Origin: Sipunculus nudus
Taxonomy: Eukaryota > Annelida > Sipuncula > Golfingiida > Sipunculidae
Direction: 5' to 3'
DNA length: 64,000 bases
Assembly: GCA_026874595.1 (NCBI GenBank)
Contig: CM049307.1
Span: 73,384,643-73,448,642 of the forward strand
The notes beneath the pieces were generated by a model. That model did not search any database. It was not told the origin of the DNA and saw only the letters and a list, made by a program, of their open reading frames with translations. The position numbers and the translations under genes were made by a program. Each line of letters starts with the position of its first letter. The stretch's first letter is position 1. Below, piece by piece: positions 298 to 57,083 of the stretch.

Positions 298-3200
298 CTG
301 GAATACATGATAAACAGAAACTAGTAGTCCGAGGACAACAGAGCTTGCCAGTACAGGGCATTAAAAAAAAGTAATGATAGATTGCATCTTGAAATTTGAT
401 ATACATTTACTTAATTTTTTTGTGAGAAATCACAAGCGTAAAAATCAAGGCAAGACAAAATTTAAAGTACAGGGACTGACTGGTACATCCAGTTCACCAA
501 AATATTTTCAATGGCATAGGTCCTATAATCCAAATGAGCTTTGTTCTTTAAATGCTTATTAAAATTGTAAAAAAAAATATAAAATATCTTGTAACATTTG
601 TCTTGAATGAATAGCAAAGCTGTGAGCTTAATGAGTTGCTACCATTCTGTGCCATTTTCAAGCCTAGGAATTCTATTATGTTTAAATCCTCATTTCATAA
701 GTCTGAGTATTAATTATCACAATCAATCACTAGCAGACCAAGTTTCATTGATACATCTTCACCAGCATTGGAGCAGTGAGCCTGTGAACTTGACATTTTA
801 CCTTTAAACCACTATACTCTATCCATGCAGAGGCTGATTACATACTAGTATCCTGGACTATATGGAGCGTACCTTTTCTCATGCACGAGTATCTCCTCCT
901 CTGAAGGCTCAGCCTCTTTCTGGGCAGCATCAAATATGATGGTCCTGATTTTATACATACAGTCAGCCTGGTTCAGCATCTGTTTTCTAGTTTTGTCTGA
1001 GGATACAATCAGGAAACCTTCCTTTGTTATCCTGTTTCTTTCCTGAATTACAAAAAGTAAGTTGCATTATCCCCAATCTGTGTTATGCTTATCATTAACT
1101 TCAATTATCGCTCATTCTTTTATTACTCAGAACAGGAGGACTTTTTCTACTTCACTCTACCAGAATTATACTCCCTCTGAATAAATATCACAGTCTGGCC
1201 TACATTTTTATTAATGTCCATGGATAAATGTGGTACATGTAATATTTTCTAATGGTACAATATCTAAGAATTGACATCACCATAATATAAGTTTCAAATT
1301 ACAAATTATTATTTCATGTTTTTCAGTCACCTAAAATTAAACAAATGACCTGAAACTACACATGAAAGTTTAATGATTCCATTTTTGATCTGAAGGTACA
1401 CTCTGACTAAAGAGATAGATATTTATGACATAAAGCAAAACACTTATTTTTACAACAGGTGTATTTTACAATAGGTGTATTAAAATTTAGGTCTGTTGGT
1501 ACCTTGATCTGACAAAATTCGCCTGATCAAGTTATTTTACAGTTGCTTACTGTGTTATCACAGTCTGGCGACGTCGACTTTGCAATTTGAATTGTTTATA
1601 TTTTTATATTTTATATATGTCGGGCATTATACAAGACGAAGCACACCAATTCAGCTTAAAAGATGGATCTTTCAAAGTATGTACTTTTAGTCTGTATGAT
1701 TATCGCCTTTCTTGTGTTAACTGGAACTGGAATGCCGCTTTTGGGCAAAGAGGAGTACATATTCGTTATTCAGCTAGTGACCTTCATCAACTTCACAACA
1801 AACTCTCACATTCTAACAATAAGTTTGATATAAGTATACTTCCGGAAGAATGCAAAAAGATTAGAAGAAGACCACGTGGCAGGAGAGGTGGAGTAAGAGT
1901 CAGGTTAAGGAGAAGATGCAGTACTAAACCGTTTGTGCCCACAATAACATTTGGTAACGTCCGTTCACTCAGCTCAAAGATTGACGAACTCCGTGCAAAC
2001 TGCCGATTTCTTTATCAATATCGAGAGGCTTGTTGCATTGCATTGACGGAATCATGGCTGAACCAAAATATATCTGACACATTCTCGAACATTCCTTATT
2101 TTACCTTATTAAGACAAGACAGAACCCAGGACTCTAATAAATCAAGAGGCGGTGGTGTAGCTCTTTATATTAATAACAGATGGTGTCAGAATATAACCGT
2201 CAGGTCTAGTATATGTTCACCAGACCTTGAAGCCCTATCAGTGAGCCTACGTCCTTCATACCTACCTAGAGAGTTTACCAATATATCTCTCACAGTTGTT
2301 TACATTCCCCCCAGTGCTGATAAAGACATTGCATCAAAGAAGATACAGGATATTGTTGCCCAATTAGAAGAAAAGAAACCACAAGCTCTGCATATTGTAC
2401 TCGGAGATATGAACCACTGTGATCTTGATCAAGCACTACCAAACTACACACAGTACGTGAACTGTAACACAAGAGGTCACCAGAAACTGGACTTATTTTA
2501 TTGTAATATTAAATCTGCTTATAAATGTGTTCAAGGTCCTCCACTAAAAAATAGTGACCATAATATGATCTATATGCAACCTACTTACAGACGTAAACTT
2601 CAAATGCTGAAACCACGTGAAATTAATATTAAAGTGAACTCAAAGGAAGCCTATGAGACCCTACAAACATGTTTTGATCTAACAGACTGGCAAATGTTCA
2701 TTGACACTTCATATGATTTAGATGAACTTACTGAAACTGTGTCTAGTTATATATCATTTTGTGAAGACATGCTGGTACCAACTAAAACCATTAAGATTTA
2801 CCCTAATAACAAACCTTTGATTAATAGTGATCTAAGGAAACTTATTGTATGTAAGCACCAAGCCTTCACAAGCAATTCAGATAACAGATATGACTTACAA
2901 AAAGAAACTGATTCTGCCATTGAGAAAGCCAAACAACAATATAAAAAGAAAGTAGAAAAACTTTTCCATAGCAAGCAATCAAAAGATGCTTGGAAGGGTC
3001 TTCAGGAATTAACTGGTATAACTAAAAGCAAGAAAGAATGCTCACTGCTTGCTGAAAATGGCTATGCTGACAAATTAAATACATTCTATGCACGTTTTGA
3101 TGAAAGTGACTTCTCAAAAGAAAAAGATGACATTCGGAGCAGTCTGAGAGCAAATTTAGAATCATGTGATGATGGCATCCTTACTGATGTAACTGATGTA

Positions 3201-6200
3201 AACAAAGTGTTAAGTAAGATTAATGTAAAGAAAGCCTGTGGACCCAACAAAATCAGTGGCAGATTAATTAAAACCTGTAGAAATAGTTTGTCCTTCATCA
3301 TACATCACATTTTTCAATTGTCTCTCTCCTTATGTAAACTACCAAAATTATGGAAGACCGCAGAAATAATTCCAGTCGCCAAAAATAACTCTCCTAAAGT
3401 GATGAATGATCTCAGGCCTGTTGCACTAACATCTATTCTCGCAAAATCTTTGGAGCGAATAGTTCTTAATAAATTACTTATAACTGTTAAACCAATGCTA
3501 GATCAACATCAGTTTGCATATTCATCCAACAGATGCACAAGCGACGCAATTGCCACATTAACTCATTATATTTATCAACACTTAGACAGGGACCCCAGAA
3601 ATTATGCCAGATCACTTTTCATTGATTATTCTTCAGCCTTCAATACAATACAGCCACACATTATGATCAATCAGCTCTGTAGATATAACATTCCTCTTTC
3701 CTACTGTCTATGGATTCTAGATTTTTCTCTCGGATAGAAGACATGTTAGAACAAGCAAAGAAACTTCTTCAGATATAATCATAAATACTGGTGCTCCACA
3801 AGGCTGTGTTCTGTCAGCAGTCCTTTTTATTCTATATACAAATAATTTGTCTGTGAGCCTTTCAGATTGTAAAATTATCAAATATGCAAACGACACTGTC
3901 ATTCTAGGCCTGATACACAAGAATGATGAATCGCTCTACAGGAAAACCATTCAATATGTGACTGGTTGGTGTGAGGAACACTACCTTCAGTTAAATGTAA
4001 AGAAGACTAAAGAAGTAGTCTTTGATTTTAGGAGATCAAAATCTGTAATTACCCCAGTTGCTATCAAAAATGAAGATGTTGATATTGTAGAAAATTATAA
4101 ATACTTAGGATGTATTATTGACAGAAATCTGAATTGGAAAGAACATGTGTTGAATCAATCCAAGAAAGCAAACAAAAGATTATATTACCTTTATTATCTA
4201 AGAAAGCTTAATATTGACAAAACCATAATTACCATGTTTTATAATTCAGTAATTTCCAGTGTCCTTACTTATTCACTGGAGTGCTGATTTACAAATATAT
4301 CTGATAAGTTAAAGAAACAGTTGAATAATACCAGGAGACCAAGAGAAGTAGTAGAATAACTGGTACTTCTCTTGCCACACACCAGGAAATCTGTGAAACC
4401 AAAACAATGGCCTTCATATCTAAGGTCATGAATGACAAAACACATCCCCTATATTCAGAGTTCCATTTTTTACTTCAGGTAAACGCCTAGATTCAATATT
4501 CTGCAGAACAACTCGTTTTAAAAAAATCTCTCGTACCACACAGTATTAAACTATTTAACTCACAACCCTCTTAGAAATTTAATGTTTTGAATTATGTGTT
4601 TTACCCGCAGAATTATCTGTTTTATCATTTTTACATGCTTAATTTTACATGCATAGTCAATATGTTATGTGTAATTTTTATGTATTTTTATGTATTATTT
4701 TTATGTATTTATCTATTTACTTATTTATTTTTTTATGTAATGAATTGCAAGTCAACAACAAATTCCTGGAACTGAAGGCTAATAAATCTTATCTTATCTT
4801 ATCTTATCTTATCTTTATGTTTGATGGTGGAAATGGATATTTTGAAGGCTATTCTTGGCAAACTAGGTTACAGTGGCCTATTTTTTTTTTCCACTGAAGG
4901 TAATTTTATATCAGATGATTTAAGTGCTGATTCAGTGACAGCTGTTACATTACAGACCACAGACATAATAACAAGTATGTAAACTTACCTTTGTTAATAT
5001 GTTGCTTCTGATCCACGCAGGGATCCAGTCTGCACTAGACACATGGAAACGGATCTCTACTTTACTGTTCACTGAAAATAACATTTACAATAATGTGTGA
5101 ATTTAAATCTGTTAAATTATATGACTGGAATAAAAATATTTGACAAAACCAAATATTCTTTACACATTTGGACCATTCAGAAACAGACTATTCTCTGCCC
5201 GCCATGTTTCATATTAAACCGTTATTTTTCACATTTACTCTAAATTGCACTGATCCTTCAATTGTTTTGCTTCCAAAATTCTGCCAATCACCAAGACTGC
5301 CTATTAGTTCTAATTAAAGCAGAACTCTTCCTTCTGCAAGAAAGCTGCTCTGTATCTGACTAAGGCCATGACAATATTATACCTCACAATCTGATACATA
5401 TCAGAAGGTTCACTCACTATATCATATATGTAAAATAAATAATGGAACATGTCCTTCAATTGGTTTGACTGTGCAGTGATTAGCCAATTAGATGCCAGTT
5501 AACATATTTCTGGCCAATGATGTTTCTCCTAATACAAACACAGGGCTGCTGCCAGCAGCCTGCTGGCTAAAACTGAATGGAGGGTGCTAGTTAAATGTTT
5601 TATTTTCTTTTAGATGGTCATATTTTGTCAATATATCAATACAAGTACATACTGAAACATGGACTGACTGTATGCCCCAGTGAATTGCTACAGCCCTAGT
5701 TACAACATACCTTTATTAACATGTTGACCTCCAGGTCCACTGCTTCTAGTATATTGTATTTGTAATTTCTCTGAAAAAAGTAATGGCATAATAATAATAT
5801 TATGTTTTACAAAAAGGAGACAGGAAAAAACCTGTAAAATAGATTACCTATGACTTGTTCTTGACCACAGATAAAGTCAACAACAAAATATGCTTTAGGA
5901 ATTCATGATGACAATAAAGACTATGATGTTGATAATATAAATGCATTAACTGGAAAAATATGAAAGGATTTTAAAATGATCACTTCAGGCATAAAAAGTC
6001 TAGGAAAGGAGAATGTAATTATTAGGACAGACTTGAATATTTTTTTATTATCTTATTATAATGACCCATATGTGAAATGCTGAATCCTCATTCTTACATG
6101 TGAGAATTCCCCATTCCATCCTGATGAAGCTCAAAAGAATAACCATACCTTGTGGTTAAAAAAGAGTTCTGAGGCTCCTGAACCAGCGTAGACTAATGTG

Positions 6201-23501: not shown

Positions 23502-24529
23502 TCAGCTTGTACCCTCCACGATGAGGTGCAGCTCGTTATTAATCCTCTCCACTCCGGTACCCAAACGACGACACTCCCTGTCCATAGTCTTGGTTAACCA
23601 CTCCACATCTGCAGGCTGAGCTCGGTTAACCCGGAGATGTTTGGTCTGTGTGGGCACCATCACAAGTTTTCTGAGATTCCCGGTATCCGGGTCAATGTGA
23701 GGAAAGTACATCAAGGCTAGATCCCCTCGGTAATGTTCATGGCCTGTGATTCCTTCGTAATCGTTTAGGAAGTCCCCACAGCCATAGATAATAAGCTTGC
23801 CTTTGTATACCTCTACACCTTTCACGTGATGCGAGGAATGTCCGTGAATGATGTTGACGTATCCTGTGTCTATCATCGCATGTGCCCATTTCATCTGCTG
23901 CTCATCAATGTCAAACCCCCAGTTTCCACCCCAGTGAATAGAAAACACGACAATGTCACCCTCCTTCTTGTAAGTCTTTATAAGCTCCTTCATTTCCTTG
24001 ACAGATTTTGAATTGTGGATCTCGACCAGATGGACACCAGCCTGCTTTGTACGAGCCCGCCATTCTGTAAACACACCACTAGACTGGTGCCCACCTGCAA
24101 AGACGAGCACACGTCGACCAAGACGAGGTACATCAATGGACACCGGTTGTTGTGCCTCCGTCAGGTTGACACCTGCACCGGCATATGGTATCCCAGCATC
24201 CTTGAGTGAAGTCAGTGTTTCTTGAAGTCCTGGCTCACACCAGTCTAAAATATGATTATTGCTCAGAACACAACAGTCAATTTTAGCACTTTTGATAACA
24301 TTGACATTTTTGGGATGCATACGGTAATGTATCCCCTTGCTTGGCCACGGTTTTGGGTGACTGGTGACTGCGTTCTCGAGGTTGATGATTCTAGCATCTG
24401 GTCTCTTCTCCTCTAGGATTTCCAAGGCATCTCCCCAGATGTATCCCAAAGGACGCTCTGATTTTGGAGTTAACCGTCCATTCTGCATCTCAGCTAAAGT
24501 AACGTATCCAATGGCATCCATCCCATTAC
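23502..24529 (-). CDS. CapA-like gene, terminal exon
   Basis: 1028 nt including stop (23502-23504). The acceptor TTATTATTGCAG sits right before GTAATGGGATGG. Encodes from GNGMDAIGYVTLAE to LHLIVEGTS. The open frame extends upstream to 24650 only because the intron happens to be open; those residues lack family similarity. Confidence 0.9.
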
Positions 24530-27500
24530 CTGCAATAATAAAAGTCGTAAAGTAATGAGTTATAAAGATTAGCAATAATATGTGCATTATGACATGCTGC
24601 TCATTTTGGCTGAATAGAAAAGTTTCTTTGCAAAAATCATCTGGGCACATGGGCTTACTAGCTTCAATTCACTGGTTATAAATCGTGGTTTGATTCTGTG
24701 TGTGAGTAAACAGGGTCCACCTGTGTCTGTGTAACATAACAAGACGGCATGGCCATAGATCTGATCTTGTGCATGCACAACAACACCCACAAAAGGATAA
24801 TTAACATGACAGAAGAAACACAGAAGAAACACCAGTTGGCAGTCTAAATTTGTGAAGTACCTGAGTACAGTACCAGGTGGCGTGCACACTATGTTTATAT
24901 TTTGCAGTACTGATTGTGTATTGTGCAAGCTTTTTCAAACAGGTATACTATGTATAGAAGTTAGTAAACCAAAAATTATGGTGCAAGCAGGTGATTTTCA
25001 AATAAAAACTTTGCTCCCGACTCTGCTCCTTGTTACTCTCATTATAGGCATCTTTGTTTGATTTGAGACAAACAATGAAACAGTGAATGCCTGAACCAGT
25101 GAATGCTTGAATCGGTGAATGACTGAATCAGAAAAAGCCTAAATCAGTGAATGACTGAACCAGTGAATGCCTGATTCTGTGAATGCCTTAATCAGTGAAT
25201 ACCTTAATCAATTAATGAATGCCTAAATCAGTGAATGCCTGAGTCAGTGAATGCCTGAATCAGTGAATGCCTCAATCATTGAATGCCTGAGTCAATGAAT
25301 GCCTGAATCAGTGAATGCCTGAATCAGTGAATGCCTGAATCAGTGAATGCCTCAATTTGTGAGGCTTGAGTCACTGAATGCCAAAATCAGTGAATGACAG
25401 AATCAATGACTGTCTGAACCAGTGAATGCCTGAATTGATCACTGAATGACTGAATTGATCACTAAATGCCTGAATCAATGAATGCCTAAATCAATGAATG
25501 CCTGTTACTCTCATTATAGGCATCATTGTTGGATTTCAGACAAACACTGAAACAGTGAATGCCTGAACCATGTCTGTCCTGACTGACGTAGAAAATGCCG
25601 GTGACCTTGAAGGCAACAGACACGACCAGATGCAAGATAAATGTGATAATCAGGTTGACCAAGGTGATCCGAACCCCTTTGCACACATAGTGGATGTTCC
25701 CGATATTGTGTCTGCAACAGAAACTTGCGTATATACTAATTTAGACAAGAAACAGAATTGTTCTGTTTCAATATTAGACCAAGTGACAATGTTGAAAGCC
25801 ATTCTTGCTCTGCAACAACAGATGAGGACCATTACTTCTAACCAGTTGAAAAGCAAATCACATGATGGTCATGGTTTGCATCAAATCAGAGGGGATATAC
25901 GCGAGTTAAAAGATCATGTATCGAACTTTGAGAGTAGGCTTAGCATACTAGAAACTAAAGTGTCCAGTCTACATGGTCATCTGACTGAGCCCACGGGGTG
26001 TGCAGAGACTCAGTCTGACATAAATGCGTTTAAGACGCTGTTAGAGGACATCAAGGTGCATGTAAACAAAACAGAGCAACTGTCTCTACACTAAAAGGTA
26101 ACGTATGTTCTATGAGACAAAAAATAAAAAAGTCAGAATCAGAAATCCATGCCCAGCAATACAAATTTGCTTCTGTTTTGACATCTGTGACGCATTTACG
26201 AGAGAGGGTACACAAACTGCATAGACATTCCCCAACACAGGTGCCAGGTAGAAGTTACGCCTCGGCGCTTTCTAATACAGACAAATCAGGACATGAAGCT
26301 GCAAGGTGCAATGGACAGACGAGATTACCAGTTGATCGGTCCAGCAAAAGCGCTGGTCCAGCTCACATTTTGGTCACATCAATAACAGATGAAGGTGTGA
26401 GTGGAAACGACTTCCCTCAGGGTAACCGGGAAAATCCATCAACGTCCATTCGCGTTGTTACTGGACATGGTGCACATGGTACAAAAACGAAACGCAGTAC
26501 TGGCTCCACAGTGAATAAAGCATATTATGTAGGGAATATAGATCCCAGTGTTGACAAATCTGACATTGAATCCTACTTGAGGTATGAGGGAATCCAGCCT
26601 GTAAGCATTAGGTTGTTCCCATGCCGTAACGGACCTCTTTTAGGGGCTCAACTGGTAATCCCGTATTCAAAAGGTAACATCATGGAGGACCCTTACTTTT
26701 GGCCCGACAATGTATACATCCGAAACTGGAGACAAGCATCATACGTCAGAGGTCCAACTGGTGGTAGAACTTATTACCGTTCATCGCAGTCTTATTAAAT
26801 AGTTTATCCTGAGGACCTGTGCTCTAATACTATGCAGAATTTACCATTTACTGACACTGTTTTCAAAATAATGTCATTCAATGTCAGGGGTGGTTTTTGG
26901 TCTTCAATGTATCTATGTAACCTACTTGACCGATTTAGTGTAGATTTATGTTTCATTGCCGAGCACTGGCTGTTTTCAGCTGATCTTAGTTTCTTAAATA
27001 CACTTCATGACAAATACACTGTTCATGCTGTATCAGATGCATCTCTCAATCCGCTCGATCCATACAGTAGAGGAAAGGGTGGTATTGCAATACTGTGGAA
27101 ACAAGTGACCCATGGGTCATGACGCTCAGCTGACTGGGAAGAGATTCACAAAAGGAAATTTTATCATCAGAATGGTAGATACCCATTCAACTGAAGCATC
27201 AAACAGATTAACCAACAGGCCAAGATTTAGTCTGTATTTATATATCTGAAAAATAGAGAAAAAATGTGTAAACTTAAAAAACTAGAATACCGGTAGCTGA
27301 CAAGTGACTATGTGTATCCGCCAAAATCAGAGTGGAACAGGTGAAGTGAGGCATGGATTGAGTGGCAGGGGGAAACAGAGTGAGGTATGTTGCAAATTAG
27401 CATGGATGTCTGCAGCCTAAATGTGTATGTAGGTTGTGCCACCTACCACAAATCCAGAAAGCTGTTCAAGTTGTATACATATGCAAAATTTTAGGCAGAA

Positions 27501-40690: not shown

Positions 40691-43600
40691 GTTGAACATT
40701 CATGAATATTCATGCATGAAGAAAAAAAGTGTACTGATGCCAGAAGAAGTTACGCATCATGATAACCGTGACTCTTTTCAGTTTTTTTTTAGTCTTGACT
40801 TGGTTAAAGATATAATTATGTGCACGCCTTTTCCCTATGATCATGATCCAGAGAAATTTGCTTCAATTTTTGCTATGCATTTTCATTCAAATAATGATAC
40901 ATAAGGTCCAAATTTTTTACTGTTAAGGATTTTTTAATTAAAATATTAAAAATTTATAAAATATCACAAGCATAGTATATTGGTTATACCGGTGTTGATT
41001 ATTCACATAAATGCAACATTTTTAAACAAATGTTAATTGTTAACAAGAGCATCACTTTAGCGTATTTATATTTCACAATATAAATTAATAATTTGTAAAA
41101 TTATGTGGATAATTTGTAAAATTATGTGGTAAAAGCGAGGAATAGTACCAGGAACTTTGTTTACAAATGAATAATGCATAAAATGTTTGTTGTATATTGT
41201 TCTTTTTTTCTGTTTGCATCCCAAAACAGAGTCCCATCATCCCAGGGTCAAGAAAATATAAAATCAGGAGTTGGCAAAAAGAATAAAATTCCAAGAGCTG
41301 GAGAGAAGAGCATCGTTTGTACAGATCTTATAGGAGAGAGACTGAATAAAAATTTAAAGAAAGCAAAGAGGAAACAACAGGATGCTCAGAAAGGTATATG
41401 AATGTGTTATATATTTAGTAGTTCTTAAGAGATCTGTATCTGTTAATAATATAATTGTTTTCTTTAAAAAAAGGGGTTAAAATAAGACTACATAATTGAC
41501 ATAACAGTATGACAACTAATGGCTAATATCAGAAATTTAAAAGTTTTGATATCACACTAAATATAAAACTTTATATTTTTTTTATAATTTTGTCTGTAAT
41601 AGAAATAAAGTCAGAAGAAAAGTTACCAAGACGAGATGCTGCGGCTGATGAAGATGAAGACAGCAAGGCAGCTTCTGTATCAAAAGGTAGAGGAGTGCTG
41701 CAGCTCAGCAGCAAAAAAAAAGTCACAGCACTGCTTGCCAAGATCAGAGAAAAGGGCATAACCAAGTCTAAAAGGAAAAAACTGAAAAAACAGCTGCGCA
41801 GCATACTTGATAAGAGGTGAGTATTGTAGTATAAGAACTCTTGTAATTATAAAGCACTCCTAGAGTAGCATAAGACCTCTTGTAATTATAAAGCACTCCT
41901 AGAGTAGTATAAGAACTCTTGTAATTATAAAGCACTCCTAGAGTAGTATAAGAACTCTTGTAATTATAAAGCACTCCTAGAGTAGTATAAGAACTCTTGT
42001 AATTATAAAGCACTCCTAGAGTAGTATAAGAACTCTTGTAATTATAAAGCACTCCTAGAGTGCAAAAATTACACCAACATGTGGATTAACATTCAAAGCT
42101 AATTGCATATTATTAACATGATAACATAAATAAAACAGCTTGTATGTGGTTGGATTGGTGTTTTCTGGCCTATATTTATAAAAGGATCAAGGTTTATCTT
42201 GCAATAGATCCCTTTAAGCTCAGCTGACTGTAAGTCAACAGAGCTATAGCAGTGGCCCTTTGTTCAACAGTTGTCTGTCTGTCCGTCTGTCAGTTAAACT
42301 GGTAGTTTTGAAACTGTTGGACCTACTAATCTGAAATTTGGCATACTGTTAGGTGTCCCCAAATCTCCTGCCATACCAAACATTGGGTAACTAAGACTGT
42401 TCTTTCAAGATATTAAGGAAAAACCTCAATTTTTTAACCATTCTTCTATATATTTCCTATGTACATACCAGAAATAAGGTTAGTATTGTGTTATTTCTTA
42501 AAGTTGAGTGCCCCAACATAATGCATTATGTGAAAACTCGGGAAATATATATACTCACTTGATAATTTTTTTTAAGCTAGAGAGCAAACTTCAAGCCTAT
42601 AAGTATATTGAACTTAGATTAACTTGTACACCAGAAATTAGATGAAAATTTTGTAAGTTTTTAAGTTATTAGCATAAATGAAAAATAAGTACTTTAAATT
42701 TTGACCAAATTTGACCATGGCACATTTTCTTCCTTTAAGCGCTGTTGTAAAAGGAATAAGTTTATTTTGCATTTGCTAAAATTTTCCAAAATACAGCAGA
42801 GCGACGTGACCCATGGATCCCTTGTTTAATGCCGTGGCCATAAACACTTAAATTTGAAAGTTTGGACTTTTTTAATGAATTCACCTTGCTGCCATAAATA
42901 GATGGTTTACCTAAAATTAACTTTGAGAAGTAATTAGACATCAGGTATCAGAATAGGCCCCTTTTATAGCTCCAGGTGTAGAGAATTCCCCTGGCACCAG
43001 CACCAAACAAGCTGGTTGTGAACCTAGCTTTAAGGTTTCTTGTCAGATGTCACAAGCAGCATCAGACAGGCTTGAACCTGGGAGCCTACCGTCCTTCTAT
43101 ATTGAACCTCCATGTTTTAGCAGAGTACTTATAGATAAATTGTCACACAGGTACATGTATTGTCTGTAATGCATCCTTCCCCTTTGAACCAAAATTGCTC
43201 CTTTAAATCATCTGTCTCTCCCCAAGCTTATTATGCACTGATTTACTAAAAAAATAAATTTGTTTTCCAAAAGATCGTACATTGTTATCATGGTTATCTT
43301 TGAAGAGTTTTGTAAATCTTGTATCGCAAGTATCTATCTATATCCTTTAAACATCCACATATTTGGGAGAAGATTGATTCAAGGCCAGTTGTAAGCAAAT
43401 TTTAAATCATGATATGGTATTTATCTGATCATTGTTAAATAATTTGTTCATTTTTTTAAACACTGATGTTGGGATTACATGGTCAAGTGAATTCATAAAG
43501 CTTGATCTGGATTATGTGATGGCTCTGATAAGAGCCGTTTTGCTCAGAGAGCCGTTGTGATCAGGTAGGGACTTCTGACTGAGTCTACCTGAGGTAGGCC

Positions 43601-46600
43601 ATGTCTGTATCATCATCAGCCTCCAGCTCACGTATGTGAAGCTCAAGCTGGTCAAGCTCATCAGCAAAACGACAGGTGTAGTCATACAGCACAGTGCGGA
43701 ACCCCTCCACACTGGCAATCTGGAGTCTCAGGCGGTGCCGATGTGTCCTTGACCTGTCCTTGAGGGCTCGGTTGTACCGCATCATGATGGCACTGAGGGT
43801 GTTGTTGACATGCACTAGTTGCTTACAGGAAAACTCGAACACTTTGTTCATGGCATCAAAGCGCTCTCTGAGCTCCTCTACGTCAAAAGATAATTCAGCA
43901 GACATGTAGATAATGAGACAATGCAGAAGAGTAACTCTAACACAGGGAGAGAAGTAATCACCTCAAGACTCAGTTGAGAACTGCTCAGCTTAACTCAGTG
44001 AGTAGTATTTATAATAAAATGGTGAGTAGAACCACTGAGTACTACTGTCAGTGGTTCTAAAAAAGTTCAGTGTCAGATGCCACATATCTTTATAATCATG
44101 GTTTCTTTGTGGTTGAAGGTGCATTTCATTAGAAGACACATACAGCTCACATGAGTAGCCTGTCACCTCCAGTGAGCACTCATTAATTGTTCATTGAGTA
44201 GTTTGAGTTACACATGAGTGACCACCCTGGTGGATTTGAGCACTCAGTTGAGTAGGGAGGTTATGCATGACTGAACATGGTCTTATTTGCTGTCATTCAG
44301 GGTTAATGACCAAGTGAATGCTATTACTAGGGTTATTAACATCATATATCACATGTCAAAATGAAGATTAAACATTTTTTAGACAGTTTGAATGACATTA
44401 CTGTGAGAAGTGTTTATTTTGTTTTGAATTAGTTTATGTGAAAATACTTAAGCTAAATGATATAGAATGAAATGTACAGCAAGCTACACATAGCTGTTGA
44501 AATAATACACCAGTTAATTAAAATAACTTCATGTTGAAAGTTCTTTAATGTCAAAAGAATTGTAGGTAATTGATGAAGGTGACATGAGTTTCTTTAATTC
44601 AAAACAATGCCATCAGTGACCCGTTCAGTGGGGTCTGGTATGATAAGGCCCTGAGAAGTTTTTATTTGTGAAAACAATATCTTTGTGTCCATTTTAATGC
44701 ATAGATTATCAGAAACAGAACCCCAGGAATAATCTTTCTATACATAGTTGGCAGGGCATGACCCTAGGACATTGCAGCATCACGTTTGTATAATGTTTCA
44801 AGTGTAATTTTTAAGTTTCAAAACTTCTGTGCTAGATACTAAAAGCTAAGACAGGACAAGAACCTGACATCACACTAATAAACATTGTTGACAAATCAGA
44901 TTATGAAAGAAATTGAGCATTTGCTTTTTAAGTGACATGACTTGGGTTTCTTTTACAATGTTTTGGGTTTATGAAGGTGCTAGGTGAATCTACCTTAAAT
45001 AACAAACCATAACAGACTTTTTTAAATACGATCCCATTAAAGAATTCAAGTAAAACAACACTATTCATAATATATATGAGATTCATGGGCCACATCTCTA
45101 TTAGTTTTAGCTCAGCTGACTATAAGTCATCTGAGCTATAGTCATGGTCCATTGTCCGTCATCCGTCCGTCTGTCTGTCCGTCCGTCCGTCCGTCTGGAT
45201 GTCTGTCCGTCTGGATGTCCGTCCGTAAGACTGGCACGTTTCGACACCGTTGGACCTACGAATCTGAATTTCAGCATACAGTTAGATGTCCCTATAATCT
45301 CCTACCATGCCAAAAATTGGGTCAATAGGACTTCGTTCCGTTGAGATATTAAGGAAAAACCTCAATTTTTTATTAGAAATCTATTTTCACACTTCAGGAC
45401 TGCCTAATATCAAAACCACTCATCTGGTTTTCTTCATATTTACCATAAATATTCCTCTATATAGTTCCTATGTACATGCCAGATATTAAGTCAGTATTAT
45501 ATCATTTAAAAAAGTTATTGGCCCAAACATAATGCACTCTGTAAAAAAATCAGGAAGATATTTTGTCACTTAAGACCCAAAGTGTTAAAGGTAGGGACTT
45601 TTTTCCAGTAATACAACTTTAATTAATCAAAATTTAATTGTATACCAAAAATTAGATCAAAATCTGATAAATTTTTTTAAATATTGGCAAAAATATAAAA
45701 TTGGTACCTTAAATTTTGCCCAACTTTGGCCATGGCACGTTTTTTTCCTGTAAGTACTGTGGATTTAATTTTCACACCATGTATACATAAGGATTTAATC
45801 TGTTAAAATCTGAAATTTGAAAATAAAAGCTGCAAAATTAGGCTAGTTATTGAATTTTTTTGGAGGCTCTTGTTGTATTCCCTTACATTGTCAAGCAGTC
45901 CACTTTGATGACTGTAGGTCATTCAGTGCACATCTCTAAGCTCCCCAGGCTGTTGACATAATTTTAGATGTCCCCAAAATCTCCTACCATACCGAAAGTT
46001 GGGTCATTAGGACTTTGTTCCTTCGAGATATTAAGGAAAAAAACTCTGTTTTCCATAAAAAAAAAGCCATTGTTACACTTCAAGGCTGCCTAATATCAAA
46101 ACCACTGATCTGTTTTTGATCGTATTTAGTATTCACATTCTTTTATACATTTTCTATGAACATACCAAAAATTAGGTCAGTATTGAGTATTATTTTGAAG
46201 TTATGGGCCAAAACATAATGCAATTTTTTAAAAAATCAGGAAATATATTTACTCACATGAGAAATGCTGAACCTAGAGACCTTTTTTCAGGAATATAACT
46301 TTATTTAATCAAAATTCAATTGTTTACCCAAAATTAGATCTGAATTTTGCAAATTTTTCAAGTTATTAGCATAAATAAAAAACAATACCTTAAATTTTGT
46401 CCAACTTTGGCACTGTTGATTTAATTTTCCCAGCATATATGCATAAGGATTTAATCTTTTAAAATCTGAACTTTCAAAAGAAATTGATTGGAATGAATAG
46501 CTTTTATTCATGTTTTCACACACCATGTCAAGTGTTGTTTACATCTAGCCCACCTAGTAGTACAGCCTTCACTTGCATTATGTAACCCACCCCAGGCAGC

Positions 46601-49600: not shown

Positions 49601-52600
49601 ATTTTCTTCCTTTAAGCATTGTTGTTAAAGAAGTAAGTTTATTTTGTATTTGTTAAAATTTTCCAAAATACAGCGGAGCGACGTGACTCATGGATCCCTT
49701 GTTTAATACCGTGGCCATAAAAACTTAAATTTGAAAGTTTGGACTTTTTTAATGAATTCACCTTGCTGCCATAAATAGATGGTTTACCTAAAATTAACTT
49801 TGAGAAGTAATTAGACATCAGGTATCAGAATAGGCCCTTTTTATAGCTCCAGGTGTAGAGAATTCCCCTGGCACCAGCACCAAACAAGCTGGTTGTGAAC
49901 CTAGCTTTAAGGTTTCTTGTCAGATGTCACAAGCAGCATTAGACAGGCTTGAACCTGGGAGCCTACCGTCCTTCTATATTGAACCTCCATGTTTTAGCAG
50001 AGTACTTATAGATAAATTGTCACACAGGTACATGTATTGTCTGAAATGCATCCTTCCCCTTTGAACCAAAACTGCTACTTTTTGATCATCTGTCTCTCCC
50101 CCAAGCTTATTATGCACTGATTTACTAAACAATAAATTTGTTTTCCAAAAGATTGTACATTTTTATCATGGTTATCTTTGAAGAGTTTTGTAAATCTATC
50201 ATGGTTATCTTTGAAGAGTTTTGTAAATCTAGTGTCACAAGTATCTATCTATATCCTTTTAACATCCACATATTTGGGAAAAGATTGATTCAAGACCAGT
50301 TGTAAGCAAATTTTAAATCATGATATGGTATTTATCTGATCATTGTTAAATAATTTGTTCATTTTTAAACACTGATGTTGGGATTACATGGTCAAGTGAA
50401 TTCATAAAGCTTGATCTGAATTATGTGATGGCTCTGATAAGAGCCGTTTTGCTCAGAGAGCCATTGTGATCAGGTAGGGACTTATGTCTGAGTCTACCTG
50501 AGGTAGGCCATGTCTGTATCATCATCAGCCTCCAGCTCACGTATGTGAAGCTCAAGCTGGTCAAGCTTATCAGCAAAACGACAGGTGTAATCATACAGCA
50601 CAGTGCGGAACCCCTCCACACTGGCAATCTGGAGTCTCAGGCGGTACCGATGTGTCCTTGACCTGTCCTTGAGGGCTCGGTTGTACCGCATCATGATGGC
50701 ACTGAGGGTGTTGTTGACATGCACTAGTTGCTTACAGGAAAACTTGAACACTTTGTTCATGGCATCAAACCGCTCTCTGAGCTCCTCTATGTCAAAAGAT
50801 AATTCAGCAGACATGTTGATAATGAGACAATGCAGAAGAGTAACTCTAACACAGGGAGAGAAGTAATCACCTCAAGACTCAGTTGAGAACTGCTCAGCTT
50901 AACTCAGTGAGTAATATTTATAATAAAATGGTTAGTAGAACCACTGAGTACTACTGTGAGTGGTTCTAAAAAAGTTCAGTGTCAGATGCCACATATCTTT
51001 ATAATCATGGTTTCTTTGTGGTTAAAGGTGCATTTCATTAGAAGACACATACAGCTCACATGAGTAGCCTGTCACCTCCAGTGAGCACTCATTACCTGCT
51101 TATTGATTAGTGGGAGTTACACGAGTGACCACCCTGGTGGATTTGAGGGAGGTTATGCATGACTGAACATGGTCTTGTTTGCTGTCATTCAGGGTTAATG
51201 ACCAAGTGAATGCTATTACTAGGGTTATTAACATCATATATCACATGTCAAAATGAAGATTAAACATTTTTCAGACAGTTTGAATGACATTACTGTGAGA
51301 AGTGTTTATTTTGTTTTGAATTAGTTTGTGTGAAAATACTTAAGCTAAATGAAATAGAATGAAATGTACAGCAAGCTACACATAGCTGTTGAAATAATAC
51401 ACCAGTTAATTAAAATAACCTCATGTTGAAAGTTCTTTAACATCAAAAGAAGAGTAGCTAATTGATGATGGTGACTTGAGTTTCTTTAATTCCAAACAAT
51501 GCCATCAGTGACCCGATCAGTGGGGTCTGGTATGATAAGGCCCTGAGAAGTTTGTATCAATGATGACAATATTTTTGTGTCCATTTTAACGTGTAGATTA
51601 TCGGAAACAGAACCCCAGGAATATTCTCTCTGTACATAGGTGTCAGGGCATGACCCAAGGACATAGCAGCATCACGTTTGTATAATGTTTTAAGTGTAAT
51701 TTTATGTTTCAACACTTCTGTGCTGGATACCAAAAGCTGAGACAGGACATGAACCTTACATCATATTAATAAACACTGTGGACAAATCAGATTATGAAAG
51801 AAATTTAGGATTTGCTTTTTAGGTGACATGACTCAGGTTTCCTTAACAATGTTTTCATAAATGTCAGTGCCTGGAATCATACAGTCCTGCCAGTATCTCT
51901 ATTAAGTGATGGTTGGTTTCCTGTAAAAATATTAACAAAGGTTTCCTATCATATGATATTTATGTGACCTATATCCTCCGAGCTATGGGGCTTGAAATTA
52001 CCCCCCAGAATAATCAAAAATATAAAACAAAACCTCCAATATCTTAATAATTAATGATGGATTGTCATGAATCTTGCCTTGAATATTGACCATTACTAGT
52101 TTTGTCAGTTCCAGAAATGTGGTGGCACCACCTGTATTTTTGTTATTGTAACAAATATTTTTCTATTTTTTTTACCATTAAATGACAACAATCATGTCAG
52201 TTTCTCAGCTGTAATTACATCTAGTGTTCCAAAACCTGGTGTGTTTATTGATCACAAGTGGATGCCATCTAGTTATAACCCTGTCTGTCTGTTTGTCTAG
52301 CTGTCCATCCACACAAATTTGTTTTCAGATGATAACTCCAGGTTGTATTGACACATGGATTTCAAACTTGATTTATGTATGGCCCACCACTAAAGCAAGA
52401 ACCTATATGATTTTGGGGTCACAAGGTCAAAGGTCAAGGTCACAGGACTCCCTTATTTAAAAAGATTATGGCTGCATTTTAAGCCAAGCTTTTCTTCCCA
52501 AACTTTCCATTTTGCCCTTTTAGCTGACTTGCCAGTATGGGGAGAGCTTAAATGAATTTGGGGTCACATGGTCAAAGATCAAGGTCACAGGGGCCATCTG

Positions 52601-55600
52601 TTCACAAATTAGTTTCCAGATGATAACTCCAGTTTAGTTTGACATATTAGTTTCAAACTTAAATTATATATGACTCACCACTTAAGTAAGAACCGTGTCG
52701 ATTTTTGGGTCCAACGGTCAAAGATCAAGGTCATAGTACTCATTTCTTTAAAAAAAATACATATGCATTTGAAGCCAAACTTTTCATCCCAAACCTTCCA
52801 TCTTCAAGATATTGCTAACCTGCCAATAGGGGAAGATTCTGTTCAATTTTTGGGGTCAAAGGTCAAGGTCACAGTACCTACTGTGGAAAGATTATGGAGG
52901 CATTTTAAGCCAAACTTTTCATCCCAAACCTTCCATCTTGCACATAAAGCTGAGTTGCCAGTTGGCTGAGAACCTGATTGATTTGGGGGTCACAAGGTCA
53001 AAGGTCATGATCACATGGGCCAATCTATCCACATATTTGTTTCTGGATGATAACTTTAGTTTAGATTGACATATTGGTTTCAATTTTGACTTATATATGA
53101 CCCACCAATAATGTAAGAACCCTTTTGATTTTTGGGTCATAAGGCTAAAGGTCAAGGTCACAGGACCCACTTCTTTAAAACGATTGTTTATATATTTTTA
53201 GCTAAACTTTCAGTCCCAAACATTCTGTCTTCTAGATGTTGCTCATCTGCCAATAGTGGAAGTAACTTATGGATTTTGGGGTCACAAGGTCAAAGGTCAA
53301 GGTCATGGGGGCCATCTATCCACATATTATTTTTCAGATGATAACACCAGTTTGGTTTGAAATATTGGTTTCAAACTTGACTTATATATTGCCCACCACT
53401 AAAGTAAGATTCTGGGGTCATGAGATCAAAGGTCAAGGTCACAGGACCCACTGCTTTAGGAAGATTGTAGATGCATTGTAAGCCAAACTTTTCATCTCAA
53501 TCCTTCCATCATCGACATGTGGTGCACCTGCTAATAGGGGAAGTTTCTTTTTGATTTTGGGGATCACTAGGTCAAAGGTTAAGGTCACAGGACCCATCCA
53601 TTCACAAATTAGTTTATGGATGATAACTCCAGTTTGGGTAGACAGGTTTGCTTCAGACTGATCACAGGACCAATATTTTGGAAAACCTCATAAACATATA
53701 TCCTTATAGACAACTGCAGCTGAGCGTTGAGACCCATGTGTCCCTAGTTAATTTGTATTATTACCGGTACTCTAACACATAGTTATTCATATACAGTAGT
53801 GGCACTCTTCTTTGAGTCATCCACTTGCCAGTATACTGAAGTATTTAGTTTTAAGGTGTCATATCTGGCAGACTATAATGTATTGAGTTTATGAAGGCGC
53901 TAGGTGAATCTACCTTTAAAAACAAACCATAGCAGACATTTTTAATACCATCCTGTTAAAGAATTCAAGTAAAACAGAACTATTCATAATTTATTTAAGA
54001 TTCATGGGCCACATCTCCATTTTTAAAGCATTTTGTTACAAAAGGCTGAAGTCAGTTTAATAACATTTTGGCACACATAAGTATCTTTTATATAGCTGTT
54101 TATTGTGTTATGTTTTTCAAGAAATTCTCATACGGTAATTCCCATCACATACTTCTCAAGGATTTAAATGTGTTCTTTGTTAATTTAGCATTTACCAACT
54201 AAATGGTCTAATCTGAGTATTGTATCTGCCAAAACAAAATTTTGTGGATACTTTGTTTTTGACCAGACTATGCTGCCACCGCGTTCTCGTGTCACTTGTG
54301 AACTGGTGCCTAACCATTTTGCTTTGACCTCTGACCTTTCCTCTCTGTAGAGCATCCATCTGTGTCTGTATCCACACATCAACCCACATATCATAGGACT
54401 TGTTTGACCAATCTGGCTGGAATTTTTCACAAGTGTAGCTCTTGGATTGCTTCATATCATACAAAGAACTAGTGGGGCCACCTGCAATCATTTTTGCACA
54501 GCATCCATCTATTTGTCTGCCATGGGATAAAATCACTCATATCTCGACAGTGGTTGAACTTATCTGCCTAAAATTTTGCATGTGTATACATCTAGGATAG
54601 CTTACTTGATTTTATGACAGGTGGTGCCACCTACATTTACTTTTATGCTACAGACATCCATGCTAATATCTGAGGACTTGTTTGAGAGATCAGCCTGAAA
54701 TTTGGCACGTGTATAGATCGTACATAGCTCTATAGCTTATACCAATTTGGTGGCCAAACTTGCAATGCTTTTTGCATGGTGTCCATCTGTTCATCTGCTT
54801 AGAGTAAAAATCATATCTCAGCAGTGGTTTCACTTATCCACTTGAAATTTTGCATATATATACATCTTGGATAGCTTTCTCTTTCAAATAACATGTTTAT
54901 ATGGCAGACAATGTCAGACATCCATGTTTATATGCAACTATATCCCCTTGCCAACCAATCCTTGCCTCACTTCACCCATCCCACTCTTATTTTTGAGGAT
55001 ATATGTAGTCGCTTGTCAACTACCCGTATTCTAGTTTATTAATACACTGAATCCACATTCAGTTTACCCAGTGTGATGAATTCCTGAAAACTTAAGTCTT
55101 AGATTACTTCATGTCAATAAGATGCATGGTTTTACAGCTCATTTGCTGTATGTAAAAGACTGAGTAGAATTCTTTGTGATCTTTCATATTGAACCGTTAT
55201 TCATGAAATGTTGTATTTGTGTTTTATTAATTTATGATAAATCATAATTTTATCAGGTTTATAAACTTGTGATAATATTTAATCTTAAACATCATATATT
55301 TATGAATATATGAAAAAGTGTATATGTAAATATGTTAATACTTCATTTGTCCTGAAGTGCACATATTGATGTTAGGAAATCAATATATTTATACATTACA
55401 ATAAAGACTTGTGACAAGAATATTGTTGACATTTTTTGAGAATTGTGAATTTAAACATTTTGATCTGGATTATGTGATGGCTCTGATAAGAGCCGTTGTG
55501 CTCAGATAGCCGTTGTGATCAGGTAGGGACTTCTGTCAGAGTCTACCTGAGGTAGGCCATCTGTGTATCATCATCAGCCTCCAGCTCACGTATGTGAAGC

Positions 55601-57083
55601 TCAAGCTGGTCAAGCTCATCAGCATAACGACAGGTGTAGTCATACAGCACAGTGCGGAACCCCTCCACACTGGCAATCTGGAGTCTCAGGCGGTACCGAT
55701 GTGTCCTTGACCTGTCCTTGAGGGCTCTGTTGTACCGCATCATGATGGCACTGAGGGTGTTGTTGACATGCACTAGTTGCTTACAGGAAAACTTGAACAC
55801 TTTGTTCATGGCATCAAACCGCTCTCTGAGCTCCTCTACATCAAAAGATAATTCAGCAGACATGTTGATAATGTGATGATGTTGAATAGAGTAACTCTAA
55901 CACAGGGAGAGAAGTGATCACCTCAAGACTCAGGTGAGAACTACTCAGCTTGACTCAGTGAGTAGTATTTATAATAAAGTGGTGAGTAATGCTACTCAGT
56001 AGCTTAACTAGAGTTCAGTGTCAGATGTCTGTTACACTGAGTACTAGAGATGACACTCCTGGCTCAAATGAGTACCTTGTCATCTACAGTGAGTACTGAG
56101 TACCTGCTAAAACTAGCATTGGGTCACACATGAATGAGCACCACCACTGATGCTGACACCCAAGTGAGTCGGGGAAGTCATGCATGGATGATCAGCCTTG
56201 GTATTCATTAGAATTAGTGGATGAGTGATTAACTCACAGTTCATTTGATAATTGAACAAACATAATTATTGGGAGCAATATGTCACTATTGATCAATGTG
56301 AACCTTACTGTGAAATTTTATGTCTGAATGATGGGTCCTGTCTCCATCAAGGAACCAGTATTTTTATGCATGAAATGTTCCCTGACTTATCACATTAAGG
56401 GGTTATAGAGGTACAGTTTATACTCCAGAGATATAAACTCTGTCATAGAGAGGCAGTTATACTCCAGGCCCTTTTCTTAAAACCATGCACCAAATGGTTT
56501 ACTAGTATATTGCCTACTATTGGATTTGATGGGTATATGATTGATGAACTAATTTGTGAAAAATGCTCTAGTTAAATTGTAATGAATTCCTCTGATTTTA
56601 ACTTACAGTCTAGTATATACTGTATATTTGGTATATTTGTGTATTTGGTTTCTGCTTGACTTGATTGTTAAATCTTCCTTGTATGTTTAAAAGATTCTCA
56701 ATCATCAATAAGCAACTTTAGCTGCATTACTTGTTAGTGTTACAATAACATGTTCCAGAAACATGTTCAGCCCACTGACAAGAATTCTTTTGTTGATCCC
56801 ACAGGTTGTTTATATATCCTATTACTTGTTTTACAGTTCAGGAGAGCTGACAAAAGAACAAAGAAAGGAGGCTGAAATTGTTTTGAAAGGAAAAACAAAG
56901 GACAACAAATCAAGTGCCCATGTCAAGACACAAGCTTTTTCATTACCAAGGGGATGCTCAGAAGAATCTGCAGTAGTAAGAAAAGAAATCAGAATATCTA
57001 CAGATGAGGAGGCAGAGGATGAAGCTGAGGATGCGGGACACACACCCAGGATGAGCTCATCACCACAGAAAGGACATATAAAG
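40563..57083 (+). CDS. Unrecognised lysine-rich, probably nuclear protein, at least four exons
   Basis: Exons 40563-40690, 41230-41393, 41603-41816 and 56837-57083 join in one frame (phases 2, 1, 2, 0) with GT/AG ends. A possible last exon is 59504-59602. The start has good context (A at -3, G at +4). The protein begins acidic (MAGEGGLEVDSSYSDIVNSW). It then has several basic clusters fit for nuclear or nucleolar targeting (GKKNKIPR, NLKKAKRKQQ, KSKRKKLKKQL), a likely helical segment (KKKVTALLAKIREKGI) and an acidic stretch (STDEEAEDEAEDAG). No membrane segment or catalytic motif. I do not recognise the family. Intron 3 is 15.0 kb and contains the antisense 106-aa genes and several mobile elements. 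Confidence 0.75.
41230..41393 (+). CDS. Lysine-rich protein, exon 2
   Basis: Acceptor CCAAAACAG, donor AAAG|GTATAT. Encodes VPSSQGQENIKSGVGKKNK, then IPRAGEKSIVCTDLIGERL and a basic helix. Confidence 0.75.
41603..41816 (+). CDS. Lysine-rich protein, exon 3
   Basis: Acceptor TCTGTAATAG, donor AAGAG|GTGAGT (consensus). Encodes EIKSEEKLPRRDAAADEDED and the basic segment KSKRKKLKKQLRSILDK. A 39-bp tandem array begins a few bases after the donor. Confidence 0.8.
41827..42061. repeat. 39-bp tandem array at exon 3 donor
   Basis: Six near-perfect copies of a 39-bp unit containing ctcttgtaattataaagcac. The unit is a multiple of three, which explains the open minus-strand frame (41768-42052); that frame is not a gene. 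Confidence 0.95.
42213..42828 (+). mobile_element. Short family-B element
   Basis: Starts TTTAAGCTCAGCTGACTG with an AGTCA..GAGCT inverted partner and then 'gtctgtctgtccgtctgtc'. Ends GAGCGACGTGACCCATGG, then ATCCCTTGTTT. About 0.6 kb. The core phrase 'ttggacctactaatctgaaa' is shared with 45250-45350. Its second half was copied to 49407-49700 by the segmental duplication. Confidence 0.75.
43521..43536 (-). terminator. Histone-type 3' stem-loop, copy 1
   Basis: The minus strand reads GGCTCTTATCAGAGCC: 6-bp stem, 4-nt loop UAUC. This fits the replication-dependent histone mRNA consensus (GGYYYU-UHUH-ARRRCC). Flanks are CAAAAC before and ATCACA after. It lies 48 nt after the stop. In histone mRNAs this element binds SLBP and directs U7-dependent cleavage without poly(A). 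Confidence 0.85.
43585..43905 (-). CDS. Intronless 106-aa protein with histone-type mRNA 3' end, copy 1
   Basis: Complete frame, MSAELSFDVEELRERFDAMN to DDDTDMAYLR. Predicted as a two-helix, coiled-coil-like hairpin: helix 1 about residues 8-50 (hydrophobics L12, F16, M19, F23, L30, L37, I40), helix 2 about 55-95 (L59, L61, I63, V66, F69, L73, L84, L87, L89, I91), acidic tail. No histone fold or basic tail, no signal peptide. A faint likeness to the N-terminal helices of ING proteins (ELRERF, LELHIRELEAD) is not enough to assign it. The gene is compact: TATA box at 44006-44013, ATG about 100 bp on, no intron, and stem-loop 48 nt after the stop. It lies antisense in intron 3 of the lysine-rich protein gene. 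Confidence 0.8.
   Translation of the reverse strand: MSAELSFDVEELRERFDAMNKVFEFSCKQLVHVNNTLSAIMMRYNRALKDRSRTHRHRLRLQIASVEGFRTVLYDYTCRFADELDQLELHIRELEADDDTDMAYLR
44006..44013 (-). promoter_or_regulatory. TATA box of 106-aa gene copy 1
   Basis: TATAAATA on the minus strand, about 101 bp before the ATG, predicting a 5'UTR of about 70 nt. Upstream (44020-44260) is dense in TGAGT/ACTCA motifs. Confidence 0.65.
45104..48268 (+). mobile_element. Family-B element, 3.2 kb, with known empty site
   Basis: Left end GTTTTAGCTCAGCTGACTAT with inverted partner 'agtcatctgagct', then a GTCC-rich stretch (45155-45230). Right end CAGCTGAGCGCCGTGACCCA followed by TGGGTCCCTTGTTT. The interior repeats a unit with 'tctcctaccat' and 'gagatattaaggaaaaa' at about 45290 and 45975. 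The paralogous site at about 54020-54035 lacks it. No ORF of note. Confidence 0.85.
48463..49375 (-). mobile_element. Family-A element, copy A4
   Basis: Inverted relative to A1. Terminal hairpin 'gtatccgccaaaacaaagttttgcagatac' is split about its centre at 48465-48495; the other end (tgcagatatatgtagtccc) is at about 49330. Border palindromes are decayed (GGTGGTGCCACC, GGTGGCACCACC). It is orthologous to A5 in duplication unit 2. Confidence 0.75.
50430..50445 (-). terminator. Histone-type 3' stem-loop, copy 2
   Basis: Identical 16-mer with the same 48-nt distance from the stop at 50494-50496. Confidence 0.85.
50494..50814 (-). CDS. Intronless 106-aa protein with histone-type mRNA 3' end, copy 2
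   Basis: Same length and organisation as copy 1. Six base differences in the frame, of which four change residues (V9I, E24K, H57Y, E83K). It arose through the 42.6-55.1 kb segmental duplication, so promoter, 3' stem-loop and flanks are duplicated too. The frame is intact. Confidence 0.8.
   Translation of the reverse strand: MSAELSFDIEELRERFDAMNKVFKFSCKQLVHVNNTLSAIMMRYNRALKDRSRTHRYRLRLQIASVEGFRTVLYDYTCRFADKLDQLELHIRELEADDDTDMAYLR
50915..50922 (-). promoter_or_regulatory. TATA box of 106-aa gene copy 2
   Basis: TATAAATA at the same distance (101 bp) from its ATG. Confidence 0.65.
52224..53748 (+). repeat. Tandem AGGTCA-type array (family-B core) ending in family-B end
   Basis: Nine monomers of about 135-147 bp, each with an AGGTCAAAGGTCAAGGTCA-like composite. 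Starts are near 52424, 52570, 52716, 52853, 52994, 53141, 53287, 53422 and 53569. The right end 'cagctgagcgttgagaccca' (about 53715-53748) is a family-B terminus. The left end is not recognisable. Confidence 0.8.
54219..55037 (-). mobile_element. Family-A element, copy A5
   Basis: Duplicate of A4 (same flanks: 'catttaccaactaaatggtc' and 'attctagttta'), with internal deletions near 54285 and 54895. Therefore already present before the segmental duplication. Confidence 0.75.
55479..55494 (-). terminator. Histone-type 3' stem-loop, copy 3
   Basis: Identical 16-mer and again 48 nt after the stop (55543-55545), although the sequence beyond it has diverged from copies 1 and 2. Confidence 0.87.
55543..55863 (-). 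CDS. Intronless 106-aa protein with histone-type mRNA 3' end, copy 3
   Basis: Older copy. Only about 55459-56120 aligns with the other two. Within this, the coding frame, TATA region and 3' stem-loop are well kept (E24K, H57Y, F80Y, D101Q relative to copy 1), while sequence further upstream has diverged strongly and downstream flanks are unrelated. That pattern suggests selection on exactly the gene-sized unit. Confidence 0.8.
   Translation of the reverse strand: MSAELSFDVEELRERFDAMNKVFKFSCKQLVHVNNTLSAIMMRYNRALKDRSRTHRYRLRLQIASVEGFRTVLYDYTCRYADELDQLELHIRELEADDDTQMAYLR
55966..55973 (-). promoter_or_regulatory. TATA box of 106-aa gene copy 3
   Basis: TATAAATA 103 bp before the ATG. Conserved in the older copy together with the 'gagtagtatttataataaa' context (plus strand). 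Confidence 0.68.
56837..57083 (+). CDS. Lysine-rich protein, exon 4
   Basis: Acceptor TTGTTTTACAG, donor ATAAAG|GTTGTA. Encodes SGELTKEQRKEAEIVLKG through HTPRMSSSPQKGHIK, ending in phase 0. If the donor is not used, translation stops 12 codons on (57119). Confidence 0.75.

Follow-up and report, generated by a model that had tools for sequence, protein, structure and literature searches.

Replication-independent histone variants, such as H3.3, are expressed from polyadenylated mRNAs. The polyadenylation of these variants is also described in passages of a published account (PMC3156773), and passages of two others state that histone mRNAs are the sole users of the 3′ end formed at the histone stem-loop (PMC2642717; PMC12775136). 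Here, we analyzed a 64,000-nt stretch of the Sipunculus nudus genome (contig CM049307.1, positions 73,384,643 to 73,448,642; hereafter the window), in which a 106-codon frame of non-histone type is followed by a stem-loop of this kind. The processing pathway is already known, and the new part is its use by a non-histone family: the frame belongs to a multi-copy, intronless gene family whose pre-mRNAs, judging from their 3′ signals, are probably processed like those of histones. Among open-licence PMC full texts, neither titles nor abstracts revealed a paper on such a family, although one may exist.

The window contains three copies of the 106-codon gene (A, B, and C), all on the minus strand, and the stem-loop lies 48 nt past the stop codon in each of them. 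Their features are as follows, the coordinates of the downstream elements having been derived by hand from the sequence.

43585..43905, minus strand: copy A frame, 106 codons, uninterrupted; a family member by alignment and tblastn
43521..43536, minus strand: copy A histone-type stem-loop, GGCTCTTATCAGAGCC; RF00032 33.8 bits
43502..43510, minus strand: copy A element resembling the histone downstream element, CCAGATCAA; two mismatches to TCAGATCTA
44008..44013, minus strand: copy A TATAAA
43487..44041, minus strand: conserved gene unit common to copies A and C
50494..50814, minus strand: copy B frame, 106 codons; protein 96% identical
50430..50445, minus strand: copy B stem-loop; RF00032 34.4 bits, above the cut-off
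50411..50419, minus strand: copy B downstream element, TCAGATCAA; one mismatch to TCAGATCTA
50917..50922, minus strand: copy B TATAAA
55543..55863, minus strand: copy C frame, 106 codons
55479..55494, minus strand: copy C stem-loop; RF00032 34.1 bits, above the cut-off
55460..55468, minus strand: copy C downstream element, CCAGATCAA; two mismatches to TCAGATCTA
55968..55973, minus strand: copy C TATAAA

The initial annotation had described copy A as an intronless gene with a TATA box and a histone-type stem-loop behind a non-histone frame. Re-reading of the window confirmed the frame and the stem-loop at 43521..43905, as well as the TATA box, since TATAAA starts 108, 108, and 110 nt ahead of the ATG in copies A, B, and C, respectively. 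The absence of introns holds for the coding frame, which is uninterrupted in all three copies. The two further copies, the downstream element, and the genome-wide family had gone unremarked. The stem-loop pattern GGYYYTNNNNARRRCC occurs three times in the window compared with a mean of 0.14 in shuffled sequences (none of 100 shuffles reached three), and every occurrence sits behind a copy of the gene, with none elsewhere in the 64 kb. A CAGATC element is present approximately 10 nt beyond the stem-loop at all three copies, and neither AATAAA nor ATTAAA is found within 200 nt past their stop codons. Copies A and C can be aligned over 557 columns with 93.7% identity. The alignment opens 136 nt ahead of the ATG and breaks off 34 nt beyond the hairpin; the unit conserved in this way comprises the TATA box and leader, the frame, and the hairpin with the downstream element. 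Copies A and B share a longer stretch of approximately 2.3 kb (93.2% identity).

A tblastn search with the window protein as the query, in which all 121 candidates were scored, gave 108 protein matches genome-wide. Counted by hand from the result rows, they fall into the following groups.

Three places in the window and a fourth at C2:72.53 Mb: window-type copies
C2:72.58-72.69 Mb: C2 array, 60 matches with a 1660-nt period, 45-48% identical, 2 of 60 with an internal stop
C3:79.21-79.26 Mb: C3 array, 26 matches with a period of approximately 2030 nt, 40-46% identical, 4 of 26 with an internal stop
18 places: scattered matches

Uninterrupted frames and tandem arrays of 60 and 26 matches, with a third array on C11, characterize the family. 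Reading of the 3′ flanks covered every one of the 18 scattered places as well as units from the C2 and C3 arrays; one scattered place (C3:79.154 Mb) was dropped for its broken frame, leaving 23 intact loci or arrays. The protein search behind this set ignores the hairpin, some of the loci having also been found earlier via the hairpin. A stem-loop was present in 21 of the 23, in strict form in 18 and with a compensated first pair in three, namely the C3 array, C10:25.23, and C2:61.840, where a double change gives TGCTCTTTTCAGAGCA. Within the C2 array, 57 units carry the strict hairpin together with CAGATC, and three units have one altered stem base. The hairpin had first led to another four loci, one at C3:31.7 and three at C14:14.4 Mb, which alignment places in the family; together with 22 of the 23 loci (C13:60.19 left out), they form a table of 26 genes. 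TATAAA or TATATA occurs within 200 nt upstream in 21 of these 26.

A strict stem-loop within 120 nt past the stop codon was found in 21 of the 26 gene loci compared with 16 of 52,000 dinucleotide-shuffled flanks. The best match to TCAGATCTA begins 9-11 nt after the stem-loop in 22 of 24 cases, and this fixed position is a stronger point than the single matches. Twelve hand-picked hairpins were compared (eight from the family, those of H4, H3, and an H1-like gene named by eye, and that of the frame in locus L020 described below). All 72 stem cells were paired, and two stem pairs showed double changes comprising nine cells, a number reached in none of 500 shuffles. The ratio of nonsynonymous to synonymous substitution rates (dN/dS) was 0.11-0.45 in all 11 pairs of genes, which are not independent of each other, and 0.54 between copies A and B, based on six differences. 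Such values agree with purifying selection on the protein, the agreement being weak for the window copies, which are nearly identical. In a tree of the 26 proteins, the members lacking a stem-loop need two changes, and likewise the members with the U:A stem; with the deep forks open, a single origin of each group is compatible with the tree.

The covariance score had been set beforehand as a test of the initial annotation, which a value below threshold would refute; RF00032 (Histone3) served as the model. Full-length model matches were obtained at all three window copies; copies B and C scored above the gathering cut-off of 34 bits, whereas copy A fell 0.2 bit short of it, formally the refuting outcome for this one copy. 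The H4 and H3 array genes of the same genome scored 33.3 and 26.2 bits, respectively, both under the cut-off. The cut-off therefore does not discriminate in this genome, and the shortfall of copy A is of little weight; the window stem-loops score like that of the genome's own H4. Among the family loci for which a hit was reported, the values ranged from 36.9 (C2:61.846) and 35.3 (C14) down to 27.5 bits (C11:41.325).

The genome was also searched by a rule that contains no knowledge of the protein, namely the hairpin followed by CAGATC at the proper spacing, with the reversed pattern as a control. This combination was found at 126 places compared with one in the control. Among the 100 of these 126 places that were listed, 57 belong to the C2 array, 23 to the C11 array, four to the window-type copies, and 11 to other family loci, with five remaining. 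The C11 array, the third of the family (63.386-63.428 Mb, period of approximately 1930 nt), was first revealed by this census. Ten of the 11 other family loci were already known, and the eleventh (C4:65.31) was confirmed afterwards. Four of the census places were read: one unit of the C11 array, C4:65.31, C3:18.847, and C1:29.45 (C3:18.865, C9:8.94, and C11:37.54 were left out). In a small comparison set, the C11 unit and C4:65.31 were found to encode family members (E values of 2.4e-13 and 6.3e-12, respectively), and C3:18.847 holds a related but frame-broken family sequence (1.3e-15); no family protein is encoded at C1:29.45. With CATATC and CAGTTC as their elements, the canonical histone genes escape the census pattern. 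Since a rule built on DNA signals only leads back to the protein family, we count this as the strongest single test. It also bears on the proposal that a chance palindrome happened to lie behind one gene. In its favor, our own arithmetic from the letters fixed by the pattern puts chance matches of 16 nt at roughly one per 260 kb; the linkage throughout the family, the kept register, and the genome-wide excess over the control already refute this proposal, which we regard as practically void.

With regard to the processing machinery, an SLBP RNA-binding domain is encoded at C1:29.647 Mb in two stretches 0.8 kb apart (60.7 and 30.5 bits), which are read as two putative exons. The tie of the stem-loop to a divergent protein family, the kept register of the element, the compensated stem changes, the encoded SLBP, and the DNA-only census support the initial interpretation of a non-histone gene with histone-type 3′ signals.

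Several observations weigh against processing by the histone pathway. No U7 was found: an Rfam search was empty, as were its controls, and is thus uninformative, and our own U7 pattern occurred at the chance level (15 places compared with 17 in the control), with no convincing candidate among the eight of the 15 places inspected for a hairpin. The element consensus TCAGATCTA was chosen after the sequences had been inspected, and single matches to it were often non-significant against shuffles (fractions of 0 to 0.52). In the set of 12 hairpins, double-changed pairs were no more numerous than under shuffling (221 of 500 shuffles), and fewer pair types occurred than in the shuffled sets. RF00032 at E values up to 0.1 reported none of L036, L061, L067, L071, and L072, which are family loci with a stem-loop or a compensated stem-loop. 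Two of the 23 loci (C2:23.76 and C3:50.93) lack the stem-loop, and both have AATAAA or ATTAAA within 200 nt. These members, L059 (G000:C2:23763391-23764184) and L060 (C3:50929418-50930200), could be polyadenylated "replacement" versions; L059 is the most acidic member of the family, with an isoelectric point (pI) of 4.6.

AATAAA or ATTAAA within 200 nt of the stop codon was also observed in eight of the 24 genes that bear a stem-loop, and some of these genes could be additionally polyadenylated. It may even be supposed that the mRNAs are polyadenylated in general and that the hairpin has another purpose or none, and passages of an account of bdelloid H2A variants describe genes with both a stem-loop and a putative poly(A) signal (PMC2642717). 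However, the window copies are free of such signals in this range, and the hairpin is conserved jointly with the element at constant spacing, as expected of SLBP/U7 processing and not of a hairpin alone. We therefore consider general polyadenylation improbable.

The initial annotation had further called the product an acidic-tailed helical protein, not a histone, and had pointed to the ING family. The non-histone nature was borne out, as no histone Pfam match was obtained and a helical hairpin is predicted; on the same grounds, the gene is not one for a core or linker histone. AlphaFold2 models of the three window copies consist of two helices (residues 2-47 and 53-105) with a mean pLDDT of 88.4 and a pTM of 0.70; the underlying alignment is shallow, and two models out of five were of far lower quality (67 and 61). 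Thus, "helical" agrees with the prediction, whereas "acidic" does not fit the family, in which the pI ranges from 4.6 to 10.3 across 26 members. A family motif was recognized by eye (KFxxAC+QLVxLNN, RYxRA, RYxLRL, EGLR, YEYA, AD.LD). No Pfam match above the cut-off was detected (best E value of 0.0019, DUF4455, in two of 11 members), and neither the PDB sequence search (best E value of 0.017, a coiled coil) nor Foldseek at an E value of 0.001 (best 0.027 in PDB and 0.018 in BFVD) gave a significant match. A relation to ING was not upheld: there was no Pfam match, and ING4/ING5 chains appeared only as weak matches (E values of 0.069 to 0.12) alongside numerous helical proteins unrelated to them. 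Assignment to the ING N-terminal dimerisation domain was rejected, with no homology detected and no significant fold match.

Histone-type hairpins are also present at virus-like loci. A repeated locus of this type, represented by L025 (G000:C2:12.63 Mb), L026 (C4:32.06 Mb), L007, and L008, has such hairpins behind several unrelated frames on both strands, and L025 alone gave six RF00032 matches (29.6-34.1 bits). Paired hairpins approximately 540 nt apart occur at nine places, three of which were read. One frame of the virus-like locus showed a PC4 match just below the cut-off (23.1 compared with 25), two others presumably resemble capsid proteins of Maverick-type elements, and one had no relatives in phage and viral collections. 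A search of viral contigs with one exact stem-loop string gave no match. In L020, a 350-aa frame (L020:915-1967, plus strand) without a Pfam match above the cut-off, which gives the impression of being transposase-like, ends 34 nt before a histone-type hairpin at L020:2002 with a CAGATCTAAG element (RF00032, 32.1 bits). L017 has a hairpin like that of L020, together with a short fragment of a frame resembling the one there. Near-identical histone-type hairpins were seen in L018 (C1:68.24 Mb) and L019 (C13:53.48 Mb), with no frame of at least 50 aa within 350 nt upstream on the hairpin strand.

Mobile elements may use the host's histone 3′ signals, and the family itself might derive from such an element or owe its spread to one; the stem-loop and element behind several unrelated frames in L025/L026 and behind the frame in L020 speak for this. 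On the other hand, no relative of the family was detected in IMG/VR or phage records, nor among the frames at those virus-like loci that were read (three of the nine places). Orderly tandem arrays and purifying selection fit host genes, and we consider a viral or transposon origin of the family unlikely.

Based on a host gene family processed like histone genes, the following scheme can be proposed. The genes constitute an intronless family of many copies, arranged in part in tandem, that codes for small non-histone proteins of two helices. SLBP would bind the hairpin, and a U7-type particle would pair with the CAGATCTA element approximately 10 nt downstream of it. Cleavage between the hairpin and the element would leave the mRNA with the hairpin at its 3′ end and no poly(A) tail. 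From these signals we infer the 3′ end itself, the pairing with U7, and a coupling to the cell cycle, by which the supply of the protein would follow S phase or depend on histone-type mRNA that oocytes and early embryos keep in store. Judging from the arrays, the protein is presumably required in quantity. Since the family parallels the histones in arrays, dosage, and 3′ signals, its product may be an abundant factor in the nucleus or on chromatin, the demand for which rises with the amount of newly made DNA, a role that we propose tentatively and hold to be somewhat short of an even chance. In a wider sense, this animal lineage could possess, next to the histone mRNAs, another bulk class of poly(A)-minus mRNAs of the replication type, encoded by a large array-forming family of helical non-histone proteins with stem-loop-bearing "replication-dependent" and stem-loop-less "replacement" members. 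Virus-like elements of the genome would have adopted the same 3′-end code, and the histone pathway would serve here as a general expression route, not one reserved for histones; this proposal comes close to an even chance. If it is true that the family uses the pathway, the rule that only histone mRNAs do so would be broken by a conserved non-histone family, and the hairpin would be a portable cassette for S-phase or maternal expression. Attention would also be drawn to an uncharacterized protein, possibly required by the animal in quantities like those of histones, and RNA-seq on poly(A)-selected RNA would miss such genes or assign wrong ends to them.

Two other genes were noted in the window. 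A 382-aa intronless frame at 23502-24650 (minus strand) belongs to the bacterial capsule-synthesis family PGA_cap (E value of 2.4e-68), in an animal genome. A retrotransposon frame at 1617-3737 (plus strand) has a reverse transcriptase domain above the cut-off and a weak endonuclease match below the cut-off.

In comparison with known systems, the family resembles metazoan replication-dependent histone genes in its intronless frame, short distance from the stop codon to the stem-loop, consensus stem-loop, putative downstream element, and tandem arrays. In the genome's own H4 and H3, the stem-loop lies 34 and 42 nt past the stop codon, respectively. The downstream element is mostly CAGATCT in the family, whereas it is CATATCT in H4 and CAGTTCT in H3. 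Unlike those genes, the family encodes a predicted helical hairpin of acidic to basic character without a histone fold. Like members of RF00032, the window stem-loops match the full-length model, two of the three above the cut-off; they differ in being attached to non-histone frames, and several family members are low-scoring or unreported. With replication-independent histone variants, the family shares a similar putative split into two gene classes, in that two members without a stem-loop have AATAAA/ATTAAA; it differs from them in being non-histone.

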